A stretch of DNA of 64,000 bases from an uncultured Pseudomonadota bacterium (GCA_903844155.1 CAIMSU010000341.1:62001-126000); one strand, 5' to 3'. Shown: positions 33,791 through 61,383, counted from the first letter of the stretch. The notes: generated by a model from the sequence alone, not told the origin. Made by a program: numbers and translations.

Positions 33791-33952
33791 CGGGACACGA
33801 TATCATGAAAGCGCCGCTGGCGCTTCGGTTCGGATCGCGGGCAGGGTTAGGATCTACCGCCATTATTACGAGTCGAAGCCGCCAGATCCGGGGTTGGCAG
33901 ATCCGGCGGAACGCGTCCGATCCGGCCCGTGTGGCGGGGGCGGGGGGGGGCG

Positions 33953-53054: not shown

Positions 53055-55229
53055 TCAGACCGGCGGCGGCAGGATCTTTGGGTTGAGCACAAAGCGCAGG
53101 GCCTCGTCGTAGGCGATCCGTCCGTCGCGCACGGCCTCCTTGAGCGCCGTGTCCATCGTCATCATGCCGTCGCGCCGCTGTGTCTCCAGGATGGTCGGGA
53201 TCTGGTGGAGCTTGTTCTCCCGGATCAACGCCCGGATCGCGGGCGTGCCGACCAGCATCTCAAAGATGGCGACTCGCCCGCCGCCCGTCCGTTTCTGCAG
53301 CAGCCGTTGCGAGACGACGCCCAACAGGCACGACGCCAACTGCGCCCGCGCCTGCGCCTGCTGCGCCGAGGGGAACGTGTCGATGATGCGGTCCATCGCC
53401 TGCCCGGCGTCGTTGGAATGCAGGGTTGCAAGAACCAGATGCCCGGTCTCGGCCGCGGTGAGCGCCGCCCCGATCGTCTCGGCGTCGCGCATCTCGCCGA
53501 CGAGGATGACGTCTGGATCCTGGCGCAGGATGTACTTCAGGGCGGACGCAAAACTCTTCGTGTCGGCCGAGACTTCGCGCTGGTCGACGGTCGCGACCTT
53601 CGAAAAATGCGCGTACTCGATGGGATCTTCGACGGTGATGATGCGGCAGGGGCGCGTCTCGTTGATGCGGTTCACGAGGCAAGCGAGGGTGGTGGACTTG
53701 CCCGACCCCGTCGGCCCAACGACGAGCAGCAGGCCCTGGGGACGATCGCCGAGGGCGAGCAGCGCCTCAGGCAGGCCCAGCTCGGCGGGGTCGGGGATGT
53801 GGGTGGGGATGGCTCGCATCGCCGCGGCCATCCGGCCTTTCTGGAAGTAGGCGTTGACGCGGAAGCGCCGGTGGTCGTCCAGCGCGAGCGCAAAATCGAC
53901 CTCGTGGTCCAGCTCGTAGATCGCGCGTTGCCGCGTCGTCATCACCGAATTCAGCAGCATCCGCATGTCGCCCTCGGACAGGATGTCGTCCGCGAGCGGC
54001 TGGAGCGAGCCGGAGAGGCGGATGAGCGGGCATCGGCCGCTGGTGAGGTGCAGGTCGCTGGCGCCGCGGTCATCGGCCTCGCGCAGCATGGCGCGAAGAT
54101 CGAGCCCGGAGCTCTTGGAGTCCGCACGCCGCAAGCTCAGGACACCCGTGGACATGCCGCGGGCCTGCAGCGCAAATTCGTCCGGGTTGGAAGCGTAGGC
54201 GAGCCCGATCTCGTACGTGATCCTGCCCTCGCGGTAGAGGCTCAAAAAGGCGTCGTTGAAGCTCACCATCCCGTCGCCCGAGCTGACGCGCAGCAGGTCG
54301 GTCAGCTCGTCGATGCGCTGCTCGCGCAGGAGTCGGGCGACGGCCGGGGTGTTCGTGAGCACCTCGACCGCGGCGACCCGCGCGTTGCCCTCGCCGACGG
54401 CGGGCAGGAGGCGCTGGCTGATGATGCCGACGAGCGAGAGCGAGAGGTCCATCGCCGCTTGCGAGCGTAGATGCTCGGGAAAGTATGAGAGGATGCGCTG
54501 GAGCGTTTGCGTGGCGTCGATGGTGTGGAGGCTGGCGAGGACGAGGTGCCCGGTCAGGGCGGCCGAGAGGGCGACGCTCATGGTGTCGGCGTCGCGCATC
54601 TCGCCGATCAGCAGCACGTCGGGGCTCTGGCGGACGGCGTGCTTGAGCGCCTCGCGGAATCCGGGGCTGTCGCTGCCGATCTCGCGCTGGGTGACGCGGG
54701 ATTTGAGGTCGTGGTGGACGAATTCGATCGGGTCTTCGAGCGTGACGATGTGGGAGGGCCGGGTGGCGTTGATGTGGTGGATGAGGGCTGCGAGCGTCGT
54801 CGACTTGCCCGACCCCGTCGCCCCGGTGACCAAGACCAGACCGCGCGGCTGGTCGGCAAAACGCCGGATCTCCGGGGGCAGTCCGAGATCCTCGGTCTCC
54901 AGCGAACCGGACGGGACCGCCCGGGCGACGCACGCGAGCTGGCCTTGCTGACGGAGCAGCGCGAGGCGGAAGCGGCGGGGCGCGGAGCCTTCGGTCGCGG
55001 CGAGCGACAGGCCGACGTCGATGTCGCCGACAGCGTCGAATTGCGCGCGTTGGCCGGGGGTGAGGGCGAGGGCGAGGAGGTCGTCGAGGTCCGCGCGGGT
55101 GAGCGCGCTGGTCCGAAGCATGCGGACAACGCCGTGGATGCGCGCGGCGGGTACCCGGCCTTCGGTGAGGAAGAGATCGGAGGCGCTCGCCGTCTCCATC
55201 GCGGCGAGGAGGGGGAGGATGGGGGACAT
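53055..55229 (-). CDS. Tandem fusion of two PilT/PilU-type pilus retraction ATPases
   Basis: 724 residues, twice the length of a PilT. Each half is complete. N-half (~1-365): Walker A GATGSGKST (136-144), Asp-box LEDPIEF, Walker B LLIGEMRDADT and His-box LVLASLHT. C-half (~375-724): Walker A GPTGSGKST (505-513), VEDPIEYAH, VILVGEMRDAET and LVLATLHSND. Both keep the N-terminal SDLxLT signature of PilT/PilU (SASDLFLTEG and GASDLHLTSGRC). PilT and PilU are hexameric cytoplasmic motors that depolymerise type IV pili. The fusion could make a ring of three double chains with alternating subunits. ATG at 55229, TTGACA promoter motif upstream. Confidence 0.95.
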   Translation of the reverse strand: MSPILPLLAAMETASASDLFLTEGRVPAARIHGVVRMLRTSALTRADLDDLLALALTPGQRAQFDAVGDIDVGLSLAATEGSAPRRFRLALLRQQGQLACVARAVPSGSLETEDLGLPPEIRRFADQPRGLVLVTGATGSGKSTTLAALIHHINATRPSHIVTLEDPIEFVHHDLKSRVTQREIGSDSPGFREALKHAVRQSPDVLLIGEMRDADTMSVALSAALTGHLVLASLHTIDATQTLQRILSYFPEHLRSQAAMDLSLSLVGIISQRLLPAVGEGNARVAAVEVLTNTPAVARLLREQRIDELTDLLRVSSGDGMVSFNDAFLSLYREGRITYEIGLAYASNPDEFALQARGMSTGVLSLRRADSKSSGLDLRAMLREADDRGASDLHLTSGRCPLIRLSGSLQPLADDILSEGDMRMLLNSVMTTRQRAIYELDHEVDFALALDDHRRFRVNAYFQKGRMAAAMRAIPTHIPDPAELGLPEALLALGDRPQGLLLVVGPTGSGKSTTLACLVNRINETRPCRIITVEDPIEYAHFSKVATVDQREVSADTKSFASALKYILRQDPDVILVGEMRDAETIGAALTAAETGHLVLATLHSNDAGQAMDRIIDTFPSAQQAQARAQLASCLLGVVSQRLLQKRTGGGRVAIFEMLVGTPAIRALIRENKLHQIPTILETQRRDGMMTMDTALKEAVRDGRIAYDEALRFVLNPKILPPPV

Positions 55230-55296
55230 GCGCCCACGTAGCGCGCCGGCCGGGGAGGATGTCTCCGGGGCGCGCGGGCGCGGGGTACGAGCGAGA

Positions 55297-55326
55297 CAAT
55301 CGCTGCGATTGCTTCGGCCCTGTCAA
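55297..55326 (-). promoter_or_regulatory. Possible promoter/operator of the double PilT gene
   Basis: A perfect TTGACA on the minus strand (55326-55321) lies ~92 bp upstream of the PilT start codon. The palindrome CAATCGCTGCGATTG (55297-55311) lies where its -10 region would be. No good -10 hexamer is seen, so this may be an activator- or repressor-controlled promoter. Confidence 0.35.
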
Positions 55327-55342
55327 GAGATCGTCAAGTCGG

Positions 55343-55371
55343 TTGTCATTGGGGGGGGGGGGGCGCATTAT
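55343..55371 (+). promoter_or_regulatory. Promoter-like element with a G13 spacer (phase-variation candidate)
   Basis: TTGTCA (55343-55348) and CATTAT (55366-55371) are exactly 17 bp apart. The spacer is TT, 13 consecutive G (55351-55363), CG. It faces the three-gene operon starting at 55443. Loss or gain of one G would change spacing to 16 or 18 bp, the mechanism known for meningococcal porA. Confidence 0.7.
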
Positions 55372-55407
55372 GGCCAACGGGCTGGTTCCTTTCGTGGCCT
55401 TCGCGCG

Positions 55408-55443
55408 ATGGAATCTGCGAACCACCCGAACCCGGCGACCTGA
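55408..55443 (+). CDS. Possible 11-residue leader peptide
   Basis: A short ORF (MESANHPNPAT) starts at 55408 downstream of the predicted transcription start. Its TGA overlaps the ATG of the 55443 gene as TGATG. That gene has no visible ribosome site of its own, so re-initiation from the leader is one way it could be translated. Purely positional evidence. Confidence 0.25.
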   Translation: MESANHPNPAT

Positions 55444-56234
55444 TGGCCCTGATCAACTCCCACCCGCAGCGCGAGATGCACGTCTCCAGCGCTCTGACCA
55501 CGGCGAGCAAGTACATCTACTTCTGGTTCACCAGCTACGTACCCTGCATCGCCATGGACTCCGCCATCGCGTCGTTAAAGGTGAAGAACTGCCAGGGGAA
55601 CGTCGAGATTACCCCGGTGGTCCAGTTCGCGCCGACCCGGAGCGACTCGCCGAGCGCCCCGCTGGTCGTCAACGGCGGGACCGGGTTCACGCCGATCACC
55701 ACCGACAACGAGTACGTCGTCACTGCGGCGAACTACGCGTTGTCCGCGAGTACGCCGGGCAACACCTACGTCCGGTTCGGCGTCGGCGTCCGTGTGACCG
55801 CTGCCGGCACCGGCACCGCAGACGTGACGATGCACATGCACTTCCTGCAGCTCGGCCAGTTGCTGGCGCCGTGGAGCGGCCACGCCCATGCGACCTCGAC
55901 CACGGTCATGTTCACGCCGATCAGCGGGTGGCTGGCTGCGCACAACATCACGGCGTTCGTCGCCGCCATCGTGATGGCGAACCGCACCGGGAACTACCAG
56001 CTCGACATCGTCTACCGGACGGCTTCGACCTCGCCGGAGAGCGCGGATGCCTGGAGCGCGGGTCAGCTCGCCGCGCTCATCAACGCCAACGGCGAGACGT
56101 GCAGCCTCGAACGGTCGCTCTCGCTCGGAAACAAGATGTGGGTTCAGTTCGGCGTCGTCTCCAGCCTGTCGTCCGGCACCACGCCCGGTCAGGCCGACAT
56201 CAGCGTCCTCGTCGGGATCCGGCAGGCCACGTGA
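55443..56234 (+). CDS. Beta-rich protein, first gene of the G13-promoter operon
   Basis: 263 residues. No signal peptide, lipobox or membrane segment. Thr/Ser/Ala-rich with strand-like alternation throughout (GNTYVRFGVGVRVTAAGTG, ADVTMHMHFLQLGQLLAPW, NKMWVQFGVVSSLSSG). Only two or three cysteines. No family is recognised. The pattern of a small N-terminal segment and jelly-roll-like strands would suit a structural or carbohydrate-binding domain, as in fibre or spike proteins, but nothing proves this. No ribosome site is obvious. The stop overlaps the next gene's GTG start. Confidence 0.68.
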   Translation: MALINSHPQREMHVSSALTTASKYIYFWFTSYVPCIAMDSAIASLKVKNCQGNVEITPVVQFAPTRSDSPSAPLVVNGGTGFTPITTDNEYVVTAANYALSASTPGNTYVRFGVGVRVTAAGTGTADVTMHMHFLQLGQLLAPWSGHAHATSTTVMFTPISGWLAAHNITAFVAAIVMANRTGNYQLDIVYRTASTSPESADAWSAGQLAALINANGETCSLERSLSLGNKMWVQFGVVSSLSSGTTPGQADISVLVGIRQAT

Positions 56235-57769
56235 GCGCTGGGGCCTGCCAGAAGCGTGGGCCCGGTTGCGCGAGCGCGGAGTGCACGGCCTGCGCCGATC
56301 AGGCCGTTGCGGCGATCAACTATGCGAGCTCGCTGCCGCCTTCGATCCCCGTGGTGACGATGGGGCAGATCAGGGCGGCGAGGTTTCGGGGTGGATTCCA
56401 ACCGCAGCGGAGGCAGCGGACGGCGAGCTACGCAGGGTCGACGGACGCGGAGGTGCTCCTCGATGGCGTTGAGATGGACCAGTGGGAGGGGGGCAACGTC
56501 GGGCCGTTCGGGTTTCCGGGCCTTGGCTCGCCCGGTGGGGTCGGCGGGCCGGGCGGGACGGGGGATCCGGGTGGGCCGAGCAACCCGGGCGGGCATACGA
56601 TCGGTCCGCTACATGGACAGTTGCCGCCTGGCCTCGTACCGAGCGCCGGCTCCGGGCTTCACGTGACCCCGCGCGGAGGGAGTTTTGGCAGAGGCGACGA
56701 TCCGTGCTCGCCGGATGACGAGTACGAGGTGACGGATGATGGGGTGACGGTAGTGGACACCGCGCTTTTGCAGACGCAATTCCTCGCGTTCACAGGCGAC
56801 GGCCGGATCGCCGACACCACCGCCCGGCTGACGGTCGCGGACGCTTACGACGCCAAGCGGCGCCGCTACCCGCCGGGGAGCGTACGCCTCTATGTGTCGG
56901 CGAAGCCCACGTCCGCCGGGGCCGACTACTATTCCTTCCTGTCGCACCGAGGTCTCAAGTTTGAGTTTGAGGCGGCGGACTCCAGTGGGAGCGCGAACGC
57001 CACGAATCTCAATCGGCCGCTCGGTGGTGGGTGGGGGCAGGCGGAGTCCTACGAGGAGGGAGGCGTGACGTGGATGTACACCGACCAGAGTTATGACCCG
57101 TCCCCCGTGATTGTCGCGACCAGCGATCCGGTTGGGCAGAGTTTCGCTCAGGGCACATTGACCGGAATCACGAACGACACCGTCAAGCTTGACGCGAACA
57201 AGGGTCTGTTGACGGGGCTGAGCGTGGTCCGGCTGGGGCCGGACTCTTACCGAGGGTACTACGGGGCGGAGTCCAACCAGCCGCCCGGAAGCCCGGTTCC
57301 GGACGATCCTCAGTCGCCGATAGGCACTATTTTCGCTGCCACGTCTCCGGACAAGGTCCTTTGGATGGTGGACGGGGCTGCCGGGCCGGTCCACGGGAAC
57401 CTCATCGGGCCGATGGTAAGCGATGATGGGACCGGGCAGGCGAGCAACGCAGCACTCTCCGGCCAGCCGTTCGCGTTGAAGCGGAACGACCCCACGAATC
57501 CAGCGTGTGTCACGCTCTTCTACTACCGGTACCCACAGGGGGACGCGATCCCGACGGAGATCTACTACACGACGGCATTGGATGGCACCTCCTTCCCACC
57601 AGAGAACGAGCAACTGCTCTCACGGGCAGATGTCGATTCGGCCGTCGATTGGACCCCCGCCGGGCCGACAATCATCCGTCTTCGCGATGGGACGTTGCGG
57701 CTGTACCTCGACAGCGAATGTGCCGGCTTCAGGTGCATCCGAGCGTACACTCTCCGGCGGAAGTCGTGA
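56231..57769 (+). CDS. Protein with collagen-like segment and GH43-like propeller domain
   Basis: 512 residues from GTG at 56231 (GTGA overlap with the preceding gene); the much longer ORF upstream is out-of-frame shadow. Cys-rich N-terminus (ACQKRGPGCASAECTACADQ), then at ~80-130 a Gly/Pro-rich stretch in which Gly recurs every third residue (FPGLGSPGGVGGPGGTGDPG). The C-terminal ~350 residues are beta-rich and resemble five-bladed GH43-type propellers: GSVRLYVSAKPTSAGADYYS, GLSVVRLGPDSYRGYYGAES and PTIIRLRDGTLRLYLDSECA. The catalytic acids are not identified, so a binding role is equally possible. No signal peptide is seen, which is puzzling for such domains. Confidence 0.68.
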   Translation: MSAGACQKRGPGCASAECTACADQAVAAINYASSLPPSIPVVTMGQIRAARFRGGFQPQRRQRTASYAGSTDAEVLLDGVEMDQWEGGNVGPFGFPGLGSPGGVGGPGGTGDPGGPSNPGGHTIGPLHGQLPPGLVPSAGSGLHVTPRGGSFGRGDDPCSPDDEYEVTDDGVTVVDTALLQTQFLAFTGDGRIADTTARLTVADAYDAKRRRYPPGSVRLYVSAKPTSAGADYYSFLSHRGLKFEFEAADSSGSANATNLNRPLGGGWGQAESYEEGGVTWMYTDQSYDPSPVIVATSDPVGQSFAQGTLTGITNDTVKLDANKGLLTGLSVVRLGPDSYRGYYGAESNQPPGSPVPDDPQSPIGTIFAATSPDKVLWMVDGAAGPVHGNLIGPMVSDDGTGQASNAALSGQPFALKRNDPTNPACVTLFYYRYPQGDAIPTEIYYTTALDGTSFPPENEQLLSRADVDSAVDWTPAGPTIIRLRDGTLRLYLDSECAGFRCIRAYTLRRKS

Positions 57770-59496
57770 GGCTGCTGCTGGGGGCGCTGGCCCTGCTCGC
57801 CGCTCCCAGACCGGCTACCGCAGCGACTCCCCAACAAGCCTCCAGCACCCTCAACTGGCCCGACCAGGAAGTCGCCATCGTTCACCCCGCGGGCGACACA
57901 AACGGTGACGGCTACGACGATGTCGTGGTTTCCGGATGGCTCACCGCAGGCGCTTCCGTTTCCTTGGGGGGGCAGGCGGGGCTCGCGACTGGGGAGGCCC
58001 TGGAGGTGGGCCATCCGTCCACGGACGGGCTGTGTGCCGGAGGCGTCGGCGACATCAACGGGGATGGGTACGCCGATGTGGTGGTCACCTACGAGTTCGC
58101 CCCTGCCGAAGTCTATCTCGGGGCCTCATCCGGACTGACCCAAACCTTGGACTGGGACGACGGGGACCTTCTCGCCGCTTGCGCGACGCCGGTGGGCGAC
58201 ATCAATGGTGATGGCTTTGACGACGTTCTCCTGGCCGCGTCCCTGGACCACGGGTGGACCAACACGGTTCTCGTGGTTGACGGCGGGCCAGCGGGGTTCG
58301 CCGCCGCGCCCGCGCAGTCACTGTCAGGCCTCAACTATGACGACGGGTTCGGCGGCGAAGTAGCTTCTGCGGGCGACGTGGACGGGGATGGCGTCCCGGA
58401 CGTCGTCATGATGTCGAGTTACCGCCACGTCTCTGTGTACCTCGGAGATGGCACGGCGCTATCGACCGAGCCCGCCACGACGCTCTCCGGCGATCCCGGC
58501 GACACCCACTTCGGCTTTGCTGTGTCGGGCGCCGGGGACACCAATGGCGATGGGTACTCCGACGTGACGGTGGGTGAGCCCAACTGGTGCTCAGGCTTTG
58601 GTCGAGGGGTCGGGGCCTGGGCGAGGCGATCATGCCCCCCGGTTGGCCGGGTCTTCGCGTTTTACGGCTCCGCTCTCGGAGTGGATGGGGCCGACAGGTC
58701 CACGCTTCACGGAGACGAGTCGTACTTCGAGTTCGGGGAGAGCCTTTCTGCCGCCGGAGACGTCGACGGCGATGGCTTTGAGGATGTGGTGGTCGCTGAT
58801 ATGGACTCGGCCGCAGCCGTGGGAGGGATGGTTTTCATGGGCTCGCCCGGAGGCCTCCGGGACGCCGGGCCGCGTCGCCTTCAGGAGCAGCAGGCACGAG
58901 AATGTTGGGAAGGCGGAATGGTGGCTGGCGTTGGAGACGTGGACGGGGACGGCCTGGGTGACGTCGTCGTGGGGGAATTTGCCGCCGACGTGGACGTCAT
59001 CGGCGGCTGCGCCGAACCCGATTTGTCCGCTGACGCCCCCAACGTCTACCTCTACACCGGCTACCCGACCGACAACCCGGACCGGGACGGCGATGGCCTC
59101 CCGTCCAGCCAGGACTGCGACGACAGTGACCCCAGCGTCGGCAAGTTGGAGGCCTACGTGGACGCGGATGGCGATGGGTACGGCGGCGTCACCACGGCGC
59201 TCGAGTGCGGCAACGCCCCCGGCTACTCCGCCGTGAACACCGACTGCAACGACGCCGACCCCACCATCCACCCCAGCGCCACCGACATCCCCGGCGACGG
59301 CATCGACCAGAACTGCGACGGGGTGGACGCGAGCAGGGCCGAGCCGGCCCCCAAGACGCCCGCCTGTGGCGGCTGCGCCACCGATGCGGCGCGTCCCGGG
59401 TTCGCGCTGTTCGTGGCGGCGCTGCTGGTGGCGCGGCGGCGCGTGCGGGCGGGATCGCAGGCGTCGGGCTTGGCCGGCGACGAAGCCCTCGACTGA
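57766..59496 (+). CDS. Surface protein with FG-GAP propeller, MopE motifs and MYXO-CTERM-like tail
   Basis: 576 residues from GTG at 57766 (GTGA overlap). Signal peptide LLLGALALLAAPRPATAATP. Residues ~30-430 hold about seven FG-GAP/integrin-type blades, each with a calcium loop such as GDTNGDGYDDVVV, GDINGDGYADVVV, GDINGDGFDDVLL and GDVDGDGFEDVVV. Two MopE motifs follow (DRDGDGLPSSQDCDDSDPSV and DADGDGYGG ... DQNCDG). The C-terminus has a Cys-rich patch (CGGCATD), a hydrophobic helix (FALFVAALLVA) and an Arg cluster (RRRVRAG): the tripartite MYXO-CTERM sorting signal for surface attachment in myxobacteria. It is the last gene of the phase-variation-candidate operon. Confidence 0.88.
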   Translation: MRLLLGALALLAAPRPATAATPQQASSTLNWPDQEVAIVHPAGDTNGDGYDDVVVSGWLTAGASVSLGGQAGLATGEALEVGHPSTDGLCAGGVGDINGDGYADVVVTYEFAPAEVYLGASSGLTQTLDWDDGDLLAACATPVGDINGDGFDDVLLAASLDHGWTNTVLVVDGGPAGFAAAPAQSLSGLNYDDGFGGEVASAGDVDGDGVPDVVMMSSYRHVSVYLGDGTALSTEPATTLSGDPGDTHFGFAVSGAGDTNGDGYSDVTVGEPNWCSGFGRGVGAWARRSCPPVGRVFAFYGSALGVDGADRSTLHGDESYFEFGESLSAAGDVDGDGFEDVVVADMDSAAAVGGMVFMGSPGGLRDAGPRRLQEQQARECWEGGMVAGVGDVDGDGLGDVVVGEFAADVDVIGGCAEPDLSADAPNVYLYTGYPTDNPDRDGDGLPSSQDCDDSDPSVGKLEAYVDADGDGYGGVTTALECGNAPGYSAVNTDCNDADPTIHPSATDIPGDGIDQNCDGVDASRAEPAPKTPACGGCATDAARPGFALFVAALLVARRRVRAGSQASGLAGDEALD

Positions 59497-59616
59497 CCAG
59501 CACCCGCGCAGGCCCGACGCGGCGTTCCGCGCAGGATCCCAGCCAGGCGCGGATCCGGGCGAGCCGCCCAAAGGAGGCCGAGAATCCCGCACTCGACCTG
59601 CATCCGGCACCCTGCA

Positions 59617-61383
59617 TCAGGGCGCGTTCGGGTCCGACGTCTCCGCATCGTCATCCGGCGCGGGCGGCAGGTTGGCCATCTGCGAGGCGGGTTTTGGCTC
59701 CCAGATGTCGCGGAGCTTGACCGGCCAGCCCGTCAACGTCCGCGGCCCGGGCGTCTTCAGCTTTCGCGCGAGGTGGTAGCCGCGCTCGATGCCGCTCCCG
59801 GGCTTGCCATCCGGAAAAACACCGGACTTCCAGTATTGTTGCTGCATGAGCTTGTGGATGCCGGCGACGCCTGCGGCGGGTGGGCAGCCGCGATCGCTGA
59901 TGTCCCAGAGCGCGATGAGCGCGAAGCTCGGGTCGTGGCCGGAGAGCACCGCGTAGTACGGCGCGTCCGTTAGCAGGAGCGGGTCGGGGAGGGCGCGGAG
60001 CTCCTCGATGAGCGCGTCGCCCTGCTTGACGTCATCGGCATTGGGCGTGTCCTTCTTGTAGTCCGAGTGCCCGATCCAGATCTGGGCGGCCACCGCGAAC
60101 GCCAGCGCCAAAGCGCCTTTTCCGTCACCCGCCCGTCGCACCAGCAGCGCCGGCCACAGCGCCTGCAGCCACATCATCGGCATGAGCACGTTCGTGTACC
60201 CGCCAACGTGCCCACGCATCAGCGAGGCCAGGAAGAACCCCATCAATGACACGAAGAACCAGTAGAAGAACCGCGGGCTCGTCGCCAGCGGCGTTCTTGC
60301 CCGTCCGCTCTGCACCAGCGCAACGACGATGCCGATGGACAGGAGCACGATCCACAGCGCGGTGATCGCGTAGTTGTTCACGAGCGCGCGCAGCCCCGGG
60401 ACCGCAAAGCCAACGACCGTCCCCAAGACGCCGATGCCCAACAGCCAGCCGCCAAGCTGGAGCATCGCCTTGCGCTGGCCAGCGCCAACCAGATCGCGCC
60501 AGTGCGCCCGCAGCCACACCCCCGCCGCGACGACCCACAGGATCGGCGTCGCCTGGAAAACCTCGATGCCACCGCCCGAAGTCTCATAGCGGAAGGGCTT
60601 CCAGGAGTGGATGTTCAGCGTTGGCCAGAAGCGGTTCGACACGATGCCGTGGTGCGAGGGCACCTCGAAGATCCACAGGAGGAACCGGCCATCCGTCCCC
60701 ACCTGCATGACCGCGATGAACAGGAGCGCCGGGAGCGCGGCGGCGAGCCCGAACCGCAGCGCCTGCGCCCTGCCATCGCGGTACCAGAGCGCGGCGGCGA
60801 TGGGGAAGCCGAAGGCGGCGACGTGGTGCTTGCAGGTGAAGGCGGCTGCGAGGAAGAGGCCCCCGGCGATGGCGCGCCCCGGCGTCGACCCGGCCGCGAG
60901 CACCAACGCCCACCCCGTCAGGCCGATGGAGACGCCGTCGATGCGGACGAGGTCGAAGAACGAGCCGCTGTCCTCGAACGTCCCGAGAAAGATCGCCGCG
61001 CAGCCGAGCGTCAGCCACCACTTTGCCCCAAGCTCGCGGGCCCCGAACATCAGCGCCGCCACGCCACTGAGCGTCCCGGCGATCGAGATCGACCGCCCAA
61101 GCGCGTAGCCGAACGGGAAGACCCTGGAGAACACCGCGACCAACCACGGATAGAGCGGCGGGTAGATGAACGGGATGTAGGTCGCGTCCGGCACGCCGTA
61201 GATCGCCTGCCCGTGCGTGAGGCGCAGCGCCGAGATCAGCGTCGCCCCCTCCATCCACTCGATGTCGTAGGGGTAGTTCGCGCGGATCCACCAACACTGC
61301 GCGAGCGTGACGATCTGCCAGATGGCCAGGCCCACGACGAGCACCTGGACCGCAAGCTGCGAGTAGCGGAGGGCGGGCGTCAT
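59617..61383 (-). CDS. GT-C-type integral membrane glycosyltransferase
   Basis: 588 residues with about 11-12 predicted helices. The first extramembrane loop has an acidic motif (YPYDIEWMEGATLI), and further sites include YPPLYPWLVAVFSRVFPFGY. This arrangement of first-loop D/E residues is typical of polyprenyl-phosphate-sugar-dependent transferases (GT39/ArnT/DUF2029 group). The C-terminal ~140 residues are soluble, ending in a Pro/Asp/Ala tail. It probably adds a sugar to lipid-linked or protein acceptors on the outer face of the inner membrane. The ATG at 61383 overlaps the stop of the PilB gene by one base (TGATG), suggesting a link with pilus or pilin glycosylation. Confidence 0.82.
   Translation of the reverse strand: MTPALRYSQLAVQVLVVGLAIWQIVTLAQCWWIRANYPYDIEWMEGATLISALRLTHGQAIYGVPDATYIPFIYPPLYPWLVAVFSRVFPFGYALGRSISIAGTLSGVAALMFGARELGAKWWLTLGCAAIFLGTFEDSGSFFDLVRIDGVSIGLTGWALVLAAGSTPGRAIAGGLFLAAAFTCKHHVAAFGFPIAAALWYRDGRAQALRFGLAAALPALLFIAVMQVGTDGRFLLWIFEVPSHHGIVSNRFWPTLNIHSWKPFRYETSGGGIEVFQATPILWVVAAGVWLRAHWRDLVGAGQRKAMLQLGGWLLGIGVLGTVVGFAVPGLRALVNNYAITALWIVLLSIGIVVALVQSGRARTPLATSPRFFYWFFVSLMGFFLASLMRGHVGGYTNVLMPMMWLQALWPALLVRRAGDGKGALALAFAVAAQIWIGHSDYKKDTPNADDVKQGDALIEELRALPDPLLLTDAPYYAVLSGHDPSFALIALWDISDRGCPPAAGVAGIHKLMQQQYWKSGVFPDGKPGSGIERGYHLARKLKTPGPRTLTGWPVKLRDIWEPKPASQMANLPPAPDDDAETSDPNAP

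Follow-up and report, generated by a model that had tools for sequence, protein, structure and literature searches.

In the 64-kb stretch of DNA analysed here (the window), a run of 13 Gs lies in the putative promoter of a three-gene operon, and slipped-strand, promoter-level phase variation is the mechanism best supported for this locus; we regard it as probable. Slipped-strand mispairing during replication would add Gs to the tract or remove them, the changed number would alter the distance between the -35 and -10 hexamers, and the altered spacing would switch the transcription of genes 1, 2 and 3 (Table 1) stochastically and reversibly. With G13 the spacer measures 17 bp, so that the assembled consensus is predicted to be ON. 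The locus would exemplify a design found throughout the lineage: numerous jelly-roll paralogues each have their own repeat in or beside the core promoter, and some share a TGTCA-type operator upstream of it. Cells of one clone would then express different subsets of the paralogues.

Table 1. Features of the putative phase-variable operon; positions refer to the window
Feature	Position	Strand	Remarks
TGTCA-N6-CGTCA direct repeat, 11-bp period	55321-55336	+	Read directly; putative operator of a shared regulator
TTGTCA	55343-55348	+	Putative -35, or third GTCA half-site; read directly and found by promoter scan
G13 tract	55351-55363	+	Putative slippage-prone spacer element; read directly
CATTAT	55366-55371	+	Putative -10, weak (4/6 consensus matches)
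Gene 1	55443-56234	+	263 aa, two jelly-roll domains; founder query of a lineage-restricted family
Gene 2	56231-57769	+	512 aa, no named family
Gene 3	57766-59496	+	FG-GAP repeats, signal peptide, MopE motif, MYXO-CTERM-like tail

The putative core promoter and the G13 tract

The elements follow each other in the order TTGTCA, TT, G13, CG, CATTAT. The coordinates thus bear out the preliminary description of this DNA, according to which the two hexamers stand exactly 17 bp apart with the run in between. A sigma-70-like scan of positions 54000-60000 returned this arrangement as the sole site, with 9/12 matches, as compared with 0.3 ± 0.6 sites in shuffled sequence. The predicted 5'UTR ahead of gene 1 is long, about 65 nt; inspection of the sequence revealed no clear Shine-Dalgarno motif before 55443, and an Rfam search of the 64-kb window no known RNA element. 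GTCA occurs at 55322, 55333 and 55345, and the third copy falls within TTGTCA, which makes the -35 role of this hexamer less certain than the 17-bp spacing implies. It may belong to the upstream GTCA array and not only serve as a -35 element.

The genome is a draft of 8.13 Mb in 375 contigs with 70% GC, and its repeat statistics were obtained by pattern searches. With independent bases, about 12 G/C runs of at least 13 would be expected per genome and 0.1 in the 64-kb window. A single G13 tract might therefore arise by chance in such a genome; taken alone, it is suggestive, not conclusive. It could be a neutral homopolymer in G-rich intergenic DNA without any regulatory effect, and most of the other runs of at least 9 in this genome indeed lie inside genes or look unrelated. 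Long G/C runs, however, are avoided genome-wide: only two of at least 13 were found, the G13 tract among them, and about 34 of at least 9, where independent bases would predict about 830. A second G9 run is seen in the window at 33942-33950; a predicted minus-strand ORF of 497 aa starts about 150 bp away.

The operon and its surroundings

The coupling of the three genes had been deduced from GTGA overlaps, and such an overlap is present at both the gene 1/gene 2 and the gene 2/gene 3 junction. In gene 3, Pfam recognizes FG-GAP repeats (E 4e-24) and the MopE metal-binding motif (3e-11), and hydropathy confirms the proposed N-terminal signal as a hydrophobic N-terminus. Its tail, CGGC followed by a hydrophobic stretch and RRR, matched none of the NCBIfam MYXO-CTERM models, so that the label "MYXO-CTERM-like" is one given by eye only. 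The same hydropathy test detected no evident N-terminal signal in gene 1, nor in 92 of the 93 members of its family.

The preliminary description had put its stress on gene 3 as an exposed product of the kind that phase variation usually controls. This emphasis has to be shifted. Proteins of the gene 3 type abound in every one of the 58 genomes searched and, being unspecific, were discarded as drivers of the repeat promoter. The constant partner of the repeat is gene 1, a jelly-roll protein without a signal peptide. The idea of exposed products is itself supported by the FG-GAP lipoproteins encoded downstream in some of the relatives; a variable role at the surface or in some structure may be envisaged for the products.

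Paralogues of gene 2 are almost confined to the genome of the window (C102, C302, C303, C30, C215, C6), and several of them adjoin genes of the gene 1 or gene 3 type, so that the cassette has been multiplied there. In other genomes, a larger gene usually comes directly after the family gene, often at a distance of no more than about 50 bp; the types of this larger gene vary and include FG-GAP lipoproteins. Downstream of the family members at L018 and L139, the genes encode HEMTH and HELQH motifs and thus possibly zinc peptidases; one of these two proteins was submitted to Pfam and gave no match. The divergent neighbour of the operon (53055-55229, minus strand) encodes 724 aa with two tandem PilT/PilU-type ATPase stretches, both detected by TIGR01420, and its product is an unusual fused retraction ATPase.

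The gene 1 family

Searches of gene 1 against Pfam, NCBIfam and PHROGs yielded nothing credible. Pfam DUF6611 came up with an E value of 0.003, below the cut-off, and was rejected, as other members gave it no support. A viral origin was likewise dropped, since neither relatives in IMG/VR (one pattern set) nor a PHROG were found. A first scan of genome contigs with gene 1 alone as query produced no match, and a first pass detected relatives in 19 of 58 related genomes. In the two-domain proteins, either half is recognized by a single-domain profile (A5); the family accordingly consists of one or two domains of about 125 aa. Within the class, 32 of 71 genomes hold matches to this profile, all of them in one order; the matches number up to 30 per genome and 10 in the genome of the window, counts that comprise domains and fragments, gene numbers being somewhat lower. 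In a sample of the phylum (379 genomes), 32 of the 33 positive genomes belong to the order; the remaining one is borderline. The named relatives stem from MAGs labelled Myxococcota, Deltaproteobacteria or Proteobacteria. Judged from these searches, the family appears to be undescribed and restricted to one myxobacterium-like order.

Two records titled Klebsiella pneumoniae (one isolate label, MaH-04nov19-8; MAG records L157, L159) also carry this Myxococcota-type family and appear to be mislabelled. A further locus, L115 (G036:C4:4500-14000), is a tandem array of several family genes without strict upstream repeats, possibly a non-variable branch.

AlphaFold2 models of gene 1 are all-beta, with a pLDDT of 81 for the whole protein and 82 for its second half. 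The closest solved folds are jelly rolls, namely birnavirus VP2 (Z 10.5) and XepA (9.7-10.3). Kinship with virus capsids or XepA was not adopted, the likeness being one of fold only and the whole-model Foldseek TM-scores being low. The subunits of the Bacillus Ena endospore appendages (7a02, 8pdz, 9i0y), with a jelly-roll fold of about 110 residues, match the predicted models of both halves of gene 1 with Z 8.5-9.5, as other jelly rolls also do. Profile searches of PDB sequences with the family, however, revealed no sequence relation to Ena, VP2 or XepA, and the similarity is thus one of predicted fold alone. The Ena connector cysteines were sought in residues 2-5: gene 1 begins with MALINSHPQ and has none there, while 37 of the 93 relatives do have a Cys in these positions. 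An assignment as Ena-type subunit was not adopted in view of the lacking homology; VP2 and XepA match equally well or better.

Repeats upstream of the family

The tract gains its significance from the comparison with relatives. A set of 93 non-redundant family members was collected by protein sequence only, and repeats were sought at -130 to -10; the strict definition of a repeat was fixed after a first look and was identical for family and controls. A strict simple repeat precedes 56 of the 93 members, whereas among 121 other genes from these loci only 2 have one (Fisher p = 7e-24). In dinucleotide shuffles the mean was 3.85 and the maximum 7. Stricter thresholds still leave 43 of the 93 members with a repeat, and grouping at 40% identity leaves 29 of 45 groups. 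This enrichment, together with the diversity of the units and the avoidance of long runs, makes a neutral chance homopolymer an improbable explanation of the G13 tract. A strict repeat is missing in 37 members, several of which belong to the genome of the window.

By size of the unit, the repeats are mononucleotides in 20 members, dinucleotides in 16 and units of 3 nt in 4, of 4 nt in 1 and of 5 nt in 2; longer units measure 6 nt (6 members), 8 nt (2), 9 nt (1), 14 nt (3) or 16 nt (1). The kinds include G/C, TC, GA, TCG, GTA, TTCGCC and 14-mers. A single 40% group holds TCG, TC, G and GTA units as well as two distinct 14-mers at the equivalent position, which argues for an instability that is conserved or selected and against one inherited sequence. 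What selection keeps thus appears to be the instability of the repeat rather than any one sequence. Poly-G itself recurs as G8-G12 upstream of L022, L023, L090, L084, L122 and L136, with G10 in the setting TTGACA-19-TATCCT at L022 and G8 at L023. The C30 paralogue of the same genome has G9 at -81 to -73, without convincing flanking hexamers. The preliminary description had considered such a switch unexpected in a myxobacterial-type genome; repeat tracts instead turn out to be characteristic of the gene 1 family in these bacteria.

Position of the repeats and differences in unit number

The midpoints of the repeats concentrate 25-100 bp 5' of the start codon. This position bears on another explanation, a translational switch: the G13 tract lies within a long frame, 55259-57769, which is that of gene 2 and is open through the tract, so that a change in length would shift it. 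The part of this frame that runs over gene 1 is, however, a mere shadow of the gene 1 frame, which is supported by homology, and in the relatives the repeats are not part of the frame that encodes the family protein. On the basis of the homology-supported gene 1 frame, a frameshift switch in this ORF was rejected, and a translational mechanism is hardly credible.

TTG[ACT] lies on the 5' side of the repeat at a distance of up to 16 nt in 32 of 54 cases (null 10.3, maximum 21), and TAnnnT on the 3' side at up to 19 nt in 23 of 54 (null 7.0, maximum 17); with the search interval displaced by 15 nt, the latter count is 3 of 38. The flanking hexamers are often TTGAC/TTGC and TAnnnT, and the modal spacing is 17-18 bp. 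The sequences fit the view that many of the mono- and dinucleotide repeats occupy the -35/-10 spacer. The long-unit repeats of L119, L193 and L225, by contrast, are situated outside a 17-bp spacer. Longer units are often placed so that a -35-like or operator sequence precedes them and the -10 element follows, and those of L018 and L025 fall into the 5'UTR. With spacings of the long and of some other units so far from 17 bp and with repeats in the 5'UTR, a single spacing rule cannot account for every member, and more than one mode of action is likely.

These cases support an alternative in which the repeat does vary and does control expression, yet through the distance between regulator and promoter, the 5'UTR or the structure of the DNA instead of the -35/-10 spacing. 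Direct repeats of the type TGTCA-N5/6-TGTCA with a periodicity of 10-11 bp point in the same direction. They occur in 16 of 92 upstream regions, those of the window locus and C30 included, where background density in these loci predicts about 0.2, a comparison to be read with the post hoc choice of the motif in mind. There are also published precedents, i.e., the spacing of a distal element (PMC2791445) and the GAA repeats of vlhA (PMC6258824). At the window locus, however, and for the majority of repeats with mono- or dinucleotide units, the repeat lies between hexamers that are near 17-18 bp apart, and for the G13 locus we consider control by other means than the spacer unlikely, albeit the most serious of the alternatives. 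Of the 92 upstream regions of the family, 16 contain a further sequence, GTCGCGAC, which is a possible second regulatory motif.

Slippage would leave whole-unit differences between close paralogues, and such differences are found: the near-identical paralogues L129 and L125, which share a genome and conserved flanks, differ by two TC units, and a single CT unit distinguishes L124 from L140. Of the related pairs, L019/L087 differs by one TCG unit, and L139/L138 is similar. These differences in unit number are known from pairs of paralogues, while the window locus is read as a single assembled copy. An error in the length, or even the existence, of the tract might be suspected in a draft of 375 contigs, homopolymer lengths being error-prone. 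The pattern, however, is found again in assemblies from different projects and in repeat types that homopolymer errors do not readily affect (TCG, GTA, TTCGCC, 14-mers), and an artefact is of negligible probability. The repeats of the relatives at the equivalent position and the unit differences between paralogues thus lend strong support to the earlier proposal of a promoter that depends on repeat length; its transcription start and its switching have the status of predictions.

Possible similar promoters beyond the family

Searches with CTTG-repeat-TAnnnT patterns gave 15 matches, about 10 of which are located some 24-75 bp 5' of small beta-rich proteins. These proteins comprise 109-175 aa, and most belong to other unnamed families (L263, L265, L272, L260, L266, L271 and L262; no Pfam match). 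The excess over controls with reversed patterns is modest (7 vs 4; 8 vs 3), and the claim of enrichment consequently rests on the family test and not on the pattern searches. Repeat promoters outside the gene 1 family are a lead, not a result.

The genome of the window contains two similar promoters. At L065 (C365), C10 follows CCTTG at about 1669-1678, 44 bp 5' of a beta-rich protein of 129 aa; this protein resembles the ones that follow promoters of a similar kind in L260 and L266 (the "VEVYE..KPF" family). At L067 (1689-1702; C15:7188-7201), C14, the longest tract of the genome, stands directly 3' of TTTGACAAT; it is promoter-like and lies 34 bp 5' of a putative lipoprotein of 213 aa.

Relation to known systems

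Simple-repeat phase variation is known chiefly from host-adapted pathogens and commensals. In meningococcal porA and opc, poly-G or poly-C is located between -35 and -10. The G13 locus resembles them in having a G homopolymer within a -35/-10 spacer of about 17 bp ahead of a surface-related gene, and by analogy its expression is predicted to depend on the tract. It differs in that porA and opc are single loci of a host-adapted pathogen, whereas here a paralogous family with many kinds of units is spread over environmental Myxococcota-type genomes. The vlp genes of Mycoplasma have poly-A promoter tracts, and those of vlhA carry GAA repeats near -40 (PMC6258824). With both systems the gene 1 family shares the multigene organization, a promoter repeat for each member and a combinatorial expression, which here is predicted; in vlp and vlhA, however, each family keeps to a single type of repeat and its products are lipoproteins, whereas units of 1-16 bp interchange here and gene 1 lacks a signal peptide. 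In Neisseria nadA, a distal repeat alters operator spacing (PMC2791445). A repeat near the operators of a regulator is a candidate model for those members that have long units and TGTCA repeats upstream; the window repeat, in contrast, sits in the core spacer, and the regulator of the gene 1 family is putative.

Phase variation in a myxobacterium has a precedent in Myxococcus xanthus (Furusawa et al. 2011, as cited in PMC8538405). The literature searched yielded no report of promoters switched by simple repeats in Myxococcota. To our knowledge, the phase variation of M. xanthus has not been ascribed to repeat-tract promoters. The kind of mechanism is thus known from porA/opc, vlp, vlhA and nadA; the lineage, the protein family, the scale and the interchangeable repeats appear to be new.

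Implications

A wider reading, which we offer tentatively as possible rather than probable, is an order-wide combinatorial switchboard in free-living Myxococcota-type bacteria: up to tens of jelly-roll-led paralogous operons per genome, each with its own hypermutable promoter, would be under a common TGTCA regulator and yield variable surface or fibre products. One type of repeat would readily give way to another at a position that stays conserved, and other small beta-rich families would share the promoter design.

Dozens of family promoters offer material for testing slippage rates and spacing rules, and a single promoter position that has repeatedly acquired different repeat units is a natural experiment. 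The undescribed jelly-roll family merits structural study. A repeat-controlled family in environmental Myxococcota-type bacteria would broaden our view of where contingency loci evolve. If the switchboard is real, these bacteria would hedge their bets against phages, grazers or prey by varying structures at the surface or in fibres, much as pathogens do with their phasomes, yet outside any host association.
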